From NCBI RefSeq assembly GCF_013410775.1, contig NZ_JACCFH010000001.1:2108001-2172000 (forward strand): 64,000 nucleotides of DNA, written 5' to 3'. The notes beneath the pieces are model-generated. The model made no database searches, had not been told where the DNA came from, and worked only from the letters and a program-made list of their open reading frames with translations. The position numbers and the translations under genes are program-made. This stretch comes from Sphaerotilus montanus. Lineage in GTDB: Bacteria > Pseudomonadota > Gammaproteobacteria > Burkholderiales > Burkholderiaceae_C. Positions 34,209 through 37,200 of the stretch are shown piece by piece. The first letter of the stretch is position 1. Each line of letters starts with the position of its first letter.

Positions 34209-37200
34209 ATGCAAACCGCCATCTCCAGCAACGCGTATTCCCCGTCCGGGGAGATCCCCGCCACCGGCGCCAGCAAGGCCTCGGCCTACGCCGGCTACCA
34301 GATCATCCGCCGCAACGGCGCCGTGGTGGCCTTCGAGCCGCACAAGATCGCCGTCGCGCTGATGAAGGCCTTCCTGGCGGTGCGCGGTGCCCACGGCGCG
34401 GCCTCGGCCAGCGTGCGCGAGGCGGTGGACACGCTGACGGAGTCGGTGGTGCGCGCACTGCTGCGCTCGCGTCCGAGCGGCGGCACCTTCCACATCGAGG
34501 ACGTGCAGGACCAGGTCGAACTCGGCCTGATGCGCGGCAGCCACCACGATGTCGCCCGCGCCTATGTGCTCTACCGTGAACGCCGCTCGCAGGAGCGCCT
34601 GAGCCAGGGCCGTGCTCCCGCACAGGCCCCGACCGACCTGCAGGTGCAGGACCACGGCCAGCGCGTGCCGCTGAACCAGGGCGGGCTGCAGAAGCTGATC
34701 GAGGACTCCTGCGCCGGTCTGGGCGACGAGGTCACCGCCGCCCCGGTGCTGGCCGAGACGCGCCGCAACCTGTACGACGGCGTGCCGGTGGACGAGGTCT
34801 ACAAGGCCGCCATCCTGGCCGCGCGCACGCTGATCGAGAAGGATCCCGGCTATACCCGCGTCACCGCGCGCCTGCTGATGCACACGATCCGCCGCGAAGT
34901 GCTCGGCGACGACGTGCTGCAGCACGAGATGGGCCAGCGTTACGTCGAGTACTTCCCGCAGTTCATCCGCAAGGGCGTGGACGCCGAGCTGCTCGACGAA
35001 CGCATGATGCAGTTCGACCTCGTGCGCCTGGGTGCTGCGCTCAAGCCCGAGCGCGACATGAACTTCGACTACCTTGGTCTGCAGACGCTGTATGACCGCT
35101 ACTTCCTGCACATCCGCAAGCAGCGCATCGAGCTGCCGCAGGCGTTTTTCATGCGCGTGGCGATGGGCCTGTCGCTGGGCGAGATCGACCGCGAAGCCCG
35201 CGCGATCGAGTTCTACGAAGTCCTGTCCACCTTCGACTTCATGTCGAGCACGCCGACGCTGTTCAACGCCGGCACGCGCCGCTCGCAGCTGTCGAGCTGC
35301 TACCTGACGACCGTGCCCGACGACCTCGACGGCATCTACGAGTCGATCAAGGACAACGCGCTGCTGTCGAAGTTCGCCGGCGGTCTGGGCAACGACTGGA
35401 CCTCGGTGCGTGCGCTCGGCTCGCACATCAAGGGCACGAACGGTGAATCGCAGGGCGTGGTGCCCTTCCTGAAGGTGGTGAACGACACCGCCGTCGCGGT
35501 GAACCAGTGCTTCGCGCCGGACACGGGGGTCTACACATCCGAAGGCGTGAAGGCCATCCGCGACATCCGCCCAGGTGACCTGGTGCTCGGCCACAGCGGC
35601 CAGTACCGTGAAGTCACCGAACGCATGGTCTACAACCAGACCGATCCGATGGTGGCCATCGACGTGAAGCACACGGTCGAGCCGCTGCTGGTGACGGACG
35701 CGCATCCGTTCTGGGCGATCCAGGGTGTGCCGCTGGGTCAGGCCAATGCCCGCACCGAGGCATGGCTCGACAAGGGCAAGGTTGCGGCGGCCTGGGTCGA
35801 ATCCGGCCAACTCGCGCAAGGTGACTACATCGGCTTCGCGATTCCGACCGAGGTGGTCGCGGTGCAAGGGTTCACCGAGGACGATGCCCGGATGTACGGC
35901 ATCCTGCTGGGCGACGGCCACCTGTCGAAAGATGGGATGCAGTGGGGCGTTTCCGGCAACCCGCAGCGCGACGAGCACCTCGATTTCGTGCGCCAGTACC
36001 TGAGCGCACAAGGCATCCACTGCTGGGAAACCGCCCGCGGCGAAACCTATGCGCAGATCCATTGGGCGTCGGGCCGCGGCGTGCTGCGTGATGGCACGAC
36101 CGGCCGCATCGTCAGCGCGGGTGCTGCGACGATGCCGTTTGTCTACGACGACCTCTACGACGCGAACCACCACAAGCGCATCGCCCCGCGCCTGGCCCAC
36201 CTGCCGCGCTCGCAGACGCTGGCGCTGGTGCGCGGTCTGCTGGAGACCGATGGCTGTGTCTCGCGTGGCAAGGAACTGACGTTCACCTCTGCGTCCGAAC
36301 CGCTTGCCGAGGGCGTGCGGTACCAGATGCTGCGTCTGGGCGTGCCCGTGGCCGGCCAGAAACGCACCCGCCGCCACAACCATGTGGGTCAGCGTTCGGA
36401 TGGCTCCAAGGTGGTGTTCGACAGCGAAGGCACGAGCATCGATCTGCGCATCCCGGCGATCCGGGAACTGGCGACCCTGATCGGCTGCACGGCTGTCACC
36501 AAGCGCAACTGGATCGAGCGCGACGGCATCGTGTTCTCGCGTGTCCGGTCGATCCGGCCGATCACGCCCAAGCCGATGGTGGTCGACCTGAAGGTCGATG
36601 TGGACGAGTCGTACCAGACCGTTGCCGGTCTCGCGCACAACGGCGGCAAGCGCAAGGGCGCCGTCTGCGCCTACCTGGAGAGCTGGCACCTCGACATTGA
36701 GGAGTTCCTGGAGCTGCGCAAGAACACCGGCGACGACCGCCGCCGCACCCACGACATGAACACGGCGAACTGGATTCCCGACCTGTTCATGCGCCGCGTG
36801 ATGGAAGGCGGCGACTGGACGCTGTTCTCGCCCTCGACCTGCCCGGACTTGCACGACCTGTTCGGCATCGCCTTCGAGCAGGCGTACACCCGCTATGAAG
36901 CCATGGCGCAGCGCGGCGAGATCAAGCTGTTCAAGCGCATCCGGGCCGTGGACCTGTGGCGCAAGATGCTCTCGATGCTGTTCGAGACCGGCCACCCGTG
37001 GATCACGTTCAAGGACGCCTGCAACGTGCGCTCGCCGCAGCAGCATGTCGGGGTGGTGCATTCATCTAATCTCTGTACCGAAATTACCCTGAACACCAAC
37101 GCCAGCGAGATCGCCGTCTGCAACCTGGGCTCGGTGAACCTGGCCCAGCACCTGACCGACGGCCCGGACGGCACCCGCGTGCTCGACACCGCCAAGCTGA

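Follow-up and report, generated by a model that had tools for sequence, protein, structure and literature searches.

The nrdA locus of Sphaerotilus montanus raises the question of how an intein can leave its host protein when the residue that follows it, the +1 position of the C-extein, is a Gly. The locus lies in a 64,000-nt stretch of contig NZ_JACCFH010000001.1 (assembly GCF_013410775.1, positions 2,108,001 to 2,172,000 of the forward strand; the window), where the gene for the class Ia ribonucleotide reductase large subunit, NrdA, holds an in-frame intein with junctions NQ/C...HN/GGKRKG (slashes mark junctions or insertion points throughout). The insert ends in His-Asn and has the TDAH sequence and both LAGLIDADG motifs. 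From the evidence below we propose, with a probability of about 0.6, that this homing intein would splice without any side-chain nucleophile in the C-extein, by direct aminolysis.

The splice junction and the +1 residue

All 38 intein-free relatives (8 loci from a genus search, the others being the 30 best of a search across the class) have AVAVNQ/GGKRKG at the insertion site, so that the intein stands exactly between Gln and Gly and +1 is Gly. This is what had been claimed from the window alone (the original prediction, with Gly812 at +1 and flanking halves of 433 and 542 residues), and the fixed junction leaves no place for another boundary with Cys, Ser or Thr at +1. Gly was found at +1 in 50/50 distinct readable C-junctions, namely the window, 40 of the 42 loci from a genome-collection scan and nine new loci from two whole-genome surveys, which provides the listing of other inteins at the Q/GG site that the original prediction had proposed. 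L043 and L045 end within the intein and gave no C-junction; the N-junction is NQ/C in 51/51 distinct readable cases, L016, which starts within the intein, giving none. Four identical copies (L055, L056, L057 and L059) were left out of the junction counts. A sequencing error at 36642-36644, named beforehand as a way in which the Gly could prove spurious, is excluded because all 50 C-junctions have it, and a chance match is no issue because 40 aligned inteins are 49-94% identical to the window copy. According to the record titles, the carriers belong to Burkholderiales, Thiothrix, Halomonas, other gammaproteobacterial metagenome-assembled genomes (MAGs) and Actinomycetes. The Gly+1 NrdA inteins are a widespread allelic homing family with invariant Gly+1 and no isolated defect; the window copy is not the lone oddity that it had seemed.

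Conservation of the splicing domain

Cys1, Thr63, His66, Asp360 and Asn378 are invariant in the 49 full intein sequences, and His377 is present in 48 of them; in class 1 inteins these residues serve in N-terminal thioester formation and Asn cyclization (PMC4031507). Ser368, Tyr369 and Thr371 are equally invariant (49/49), residues 368-371 forming a predicted strand that adjoins residues 374-377. Position 13 of block F (F:13) is variable, with Glu in 38, Arg in five, Ala in four, His in one and Pro in one. Both endonuclease motifs are unaltered in 44/49 copies, and the five with altered motifs (L031, L039, L040, L042 and L119) still keep Cys1, Thr63, His66, Asp360, Asn378 and His377 without exception. 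In the 309-residue intein of L031, the ratio of nonsynonymous to synonymous substitution rates (dN/dS), taken against two relatives, is 0.35-0.40 in the endonuclease and 0-0.14 in the splicing parts. As judged from this conservation, the splicing domain is under selection, also where the endonuclease decays.

The most diverged member, L041 from Thiothrix fructosivorans (49%), ends in Ser-Asn, the sole exception to the penultimate His; its block F has His where Glu prevails in the other members. Two MAG contigs carry lesions: in L043 the intein is frameshifted around 4219-4273, and in L011 the N-extein contains an in-frame TAG.

Distribution and homing

In the genus survey of 13 genomes the site was filled in three and empty in eight, and two had no close NrdA match; in these two (G014 and G019) only a distant match of ~30% was retrieved, and class Ia NrdA seems lost or absent. 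A full-length intein was found in 4/399 genomes of the family. In the class survey, NrdA was matched in 219/369 genomes with E-values up to 1e-20, and seven of nine split-match candidates, picked by eye, have the intein, making at least 8/369 with the window genome. Near-identical inteins lie in diverged exteins in 3/3 Halomonas pairs (silent differences 0.025-0.081 versus 0.248-0.323), a pattern that is, on these divergences, the mark of recent homing. Three actinomycete records (L022, L026 and L033) have this intein too, flanked by NrdA sequence that is very similar, pointing to horizontal transfer either of nrdA or of the intein.

Proposed splicing route

Since Gly has no side-chain nucleophile, the textbook branched intermediate cannot form at +1. 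In the route we favour, Cys1 would form a thioester with the N-extein Gln, cyclization of Asn378 would release the Gly+1 alpha-amine, both ends being kept together by the HINT fold, and the freed amine would attack the Cys1 thioester directly, giving a native Gln-Gly bond in loop 2 of the enzyme. Type A bacterial intein-like (BIL) domains have been proposed to react in this manner, the amine attacking the thioester after Asn cyclization (PMC4031507). Asn cyclization would precede ligation, with the thioester waiting, whereas in usual inteins it is about as slow as the earlier steps or slower, and so not ahead of ligation (PMC4031507). Intact splicing motifs, copies with a decayed endonuclease, recent homing and carriers with a sole reductase (see below) together indicate that the intein should yield working NrdA. 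Indeed, we hold it very probable that ligated NrdA is made and, granted this, rather probable that it would be made by direct aminolysis in the order of steps given. The original prediction had set stalling or cleavage products beside an atypical, BIL-like route: the latter is the best reading of these sequences, and stalling or dead-end cleavage is unlikely as the main outcome.

It is improbable that another side chain acts as surrogate acceptor, taking the N-extein in an unusual branched ester and then passing it to the Gly amine. Possible candidates would be the invariant Ser368, Tyr369 and Thr371 of block F, on the predicted strand next to the intein end, or the C-extein Cys+9 (GGKRKGAVC), present in the carriers read; however, Cys+9 is also found in 38/38 intein-free NrdA sites, being then a host feature, the Ser and Thr may be structural, and we know of no intein that uses such residues in this way.

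In the alignment, the counterpart of Gly+1 is residue 295 in E. coli NrdA and residue 443 in P. aeruginosa NrdA, which places the intein at the start of specificity loop 2, taken to span residues 292-301 in the E. coli enzyme. This loop includes E. coli Arg298, Gly299 and Ala301 and connects the substrate with the specificity site, Arg298 contacting the substrate itself (PMC8772380). Cleaved ends at loop 2 would thus be expected to harm substrate choice, which bears on a further, less likely explanation, namely that the intein cuts at both ends with no ligation, leaving halves of 433 and 542 residues that together form a working NrdA. BIL domains often cleave instead of splicing (PMC7664689), and phage Aeh1 has a fully active NrdA although a homing endonuclease gene splits it (PMC2988022). 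Here, however, the break would come between the counterparts of E. coli residues 294 and 295, three residues ahead of the substrate-contacting Arg298 (PMC8772380), and none of the loci read showed a fission of nrdA there, though fission would be expected if ligation were unneeded.

Requirement for NrdA in the carriers

A search for PF02867 proteins was performed in 52 distinct carrier genomes, three duplicate handles being counted once. A second complete PF02867 protein was not found in 25 of the 52, including G544, where a 137-residue frame holding a C-terminal fragment gave a further match, and G503, with NrdA disrupted near the C-terminus. The search for NrdD (PF13597) covered 24 of these 25, all but G439, which has two intein-type NrdA copies, and gave matches in four (G427, G428, G434 and, in pieces, G010). 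The remaining 20/24, that is 20/52 carriers, showed no PF13597 match and count as without other complete reductase, monomeric class II enzymes (TIGR02505) not having been searched apart. Completeness is given for seven of the 20 (G521 100, G750 100, G060 99, G597 99, G544 98, G503 97 and G017 83), with four clean sole-reductase cases listed as 99-100% complete; the others are mostly MAGs without stated completeness. The named isolates among the 20 are Macromonas bipunctata (G002 = G060) and Thiothrix lacustris (G005). From these searches, some carriers seem unable to replace NrdA.

As to the second reductase whose presence the original prediction had left to be checked, the window genome also encodes an intein-free 981-aa PF02867 protein, which we read as NrdJ, so that the essentiality argument rests on the other carriers. 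With two congeners, moreover, having only the ~30% match, NrdA is dispensable in this genus. The premise that NrdA is usually essential thus fails for the window host (NrdJ-like gene; 2/13 congeners without NrdA match) and stands for other carriers (20/52).

Several points weigh against splicing by direct aminolysis. Type A BIL domains are reported mostly to cleave (PMC4031507, PMC7664689), and one review holds that they cannot ligate (PMC7765530). Another complete or partial PF02867 protein is encoded by 27/52 carriers, window host among them, and NrdA may therefore be dispensable there; the limit just given for class II enzymes applies to the 20 sole-reductase carriers, and in one of these, G503 (L120), the NrdA frame as assembled is broken downstream of the intein, in the C-terminal part. 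Finally, the clear homing signal is confined to 3/740 pairs, the other 737 being without such excess. A last rival is an intein in decay that no longer splices, in an NrdA made dispensable by NrdJ or NrdD. It would be in keeping with the second reductases and with the lesions in L043, L011 and G503, but is very unlikely in view of splicing residues invariant over 49 copies, the low dN/dS, the 20/52 carriers without recognised alternative and the recent homing in Halomonas.

Comparison with known inteins

Over the whole structure model the window intein has the HINT plus LAGLIDADG architecture of class 1 inteins such as TliVMA, PI-SceI and PI-PfuI, and the family shares with them Cys1, the block B Thr and His, Asp at block F position 4 (F:4), the His-Asn end and the exact insertion in a conserved site. 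Of the class 1 features, those at position 1, in blocks B and F and at the C-terminal Asn are thus present, whereas Cys, Ser or Thr at +1 is replaced by Gly (50/50) and the F:13 His by other residues in 48/49. Class 2 inteins have Ala at position 1 and Cys at +1, where this family has Cys1 and Gly+1. Class 3 inteins lack Cys or Ser at position 1 and have Cys at F:4 with a WCT motif, where Cys1 and Asp360 are found here (49/49); a Cys acceptor of the class 3 type is ruled out, F:4 being Asp in 49/49 and no Cys but Cys1 being invariant. As in homing inteins, there is a LAGLIDADG domain (PF14528 match above cut-off) and horizontal spread to one site, with three Halomonas pairs and sporadic occurrence in the genus.

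The resemblance to type A BIL domains includes the HINT fold (Clostridium thermocellum BIL4, 2lwy; 26% identity, 1.5 A over 126 residues), the His-Asn end, the absence of a +1 nucleophile and the route likened to that proposed for them (PMC4031507). BIL domains, however, occupy variable parts of proteins that are not conserved (PMC5874633, PMC7765530), unlike the NrdA intein, which has a homing endonuclease and an invariant site (NQ/GGKRKG in 38/38 empty relatives).

A LAGLIDADG intein at position 442 was described in 2015 in the NrdA of Azotobacter chroococcum (Achr_15980, residues 442-800) and A. vinelandii (Avin_33290) (PMC4465626). This 359-residue intein, compared for family and +1 by its published description, not by sequence, is probably at the same site, as Gly+1 aligns to P. 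aeruginosa NrdA 443; the passages of that paper dealing with it make no remark on the +1 residue. In the open-licence literature, no earlier report of Gly+1 at this NrdA site was found.

All five related inteins at other sites that were read to the junction have Cys or Thr at +1. The NrdA of G750 (L125, G750:C1:25200-31500) holds, besides its Gly+1 intein, a second of 368 aa at EIAV/C...HN/CNLGS, in a genome listed as 100% complete where no other PF02867 or PF13597 protein was found, and is a natural side-by-side control with Gly+1 and Cys+1 inteins in one chain. Two inteins of class II reductases (NrdJ; L074 and L082) read NP/C...HN/C, with the canonical +1 Cys. These three are LAGLIDADG-type inteins in reductases like the Gly+1 family but, unlike it, have Cys at +1 and the block F His.

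Organization of the locus

The features of the gene and its insert are collected in Table 1. Upstream of nrdA, the C-terminal part of the product of the open reading frame at 32522-34021 resembles an AmpD-type amidase.

Table 1. Features of nrdA, its intein and nrdB (window positions)
Feature	Position	Strand	Remarks
nrdA precursor, class Ia ribonucleotide reductase large subunit with in-frame intein	34209..38270	+	Stop included; frame uninterrupted from ATG at 34209 to stop ending at 38270
N-extein, 433 aa	34209..35507	+	Last residues VAVNQ
Intein, 378 aa, Cys1 to Asn378	35508..36641	+	Residues 434-811 of the precursor
Cys1, first nucleophile	35508..35510	+	49/49 full sequences
Block B TDAH (T63-D-A-H66)	35694..35705	+	Thr63 and His66 invariant, 49/49
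LAGLIDADG homing endonuclease region, ~residues 116-330	35853..36497	+	Approximate boundaries
First LAGLIDADG motif	35892..35921	+	MYGILLGDGH
Second LAGLIDADG motif	36225..36254	+	LVRGLLETDG
Blocks F and G	36576..36641	+	Asp360, Ser368, Tyr369, Thr371, Asn378 invariant (49/49); His377 48/49
Gly at +1 (Gly812 of precursor)	36642..36644	+	Codon GGC; aligned to E. coli NrdA residue 295
C-extein, 542 aa	36642..38267	+	
nrdB, small subunit	38399..39532	+	PF00268

Significance

In reviews, Cys, Ser or Thr at +1 belongs to the definition of an intein, and the nucleophile-free BIL domains are treated separately, as mainly cleaving and found in non-essential contexts; here, by contrast, a whole homing-intein family keeps Gly+1 in a reductase for which some carriers seem to have no substitute. 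The chances are about even, in our judgement, that these inteins represent a distinct mechanistic class of true inteins, mobile, endonuclease-bearing and allelic in an essential enzyme, which would splice efficiently by direct aminolysis after Asn cyclization, with no side-chain nucleophile at +1. If so, the usual order, with ligation before Asn cyclization, would be reversed, and the textbook +1 rule would be unnecessary for fitness-grade splicing.
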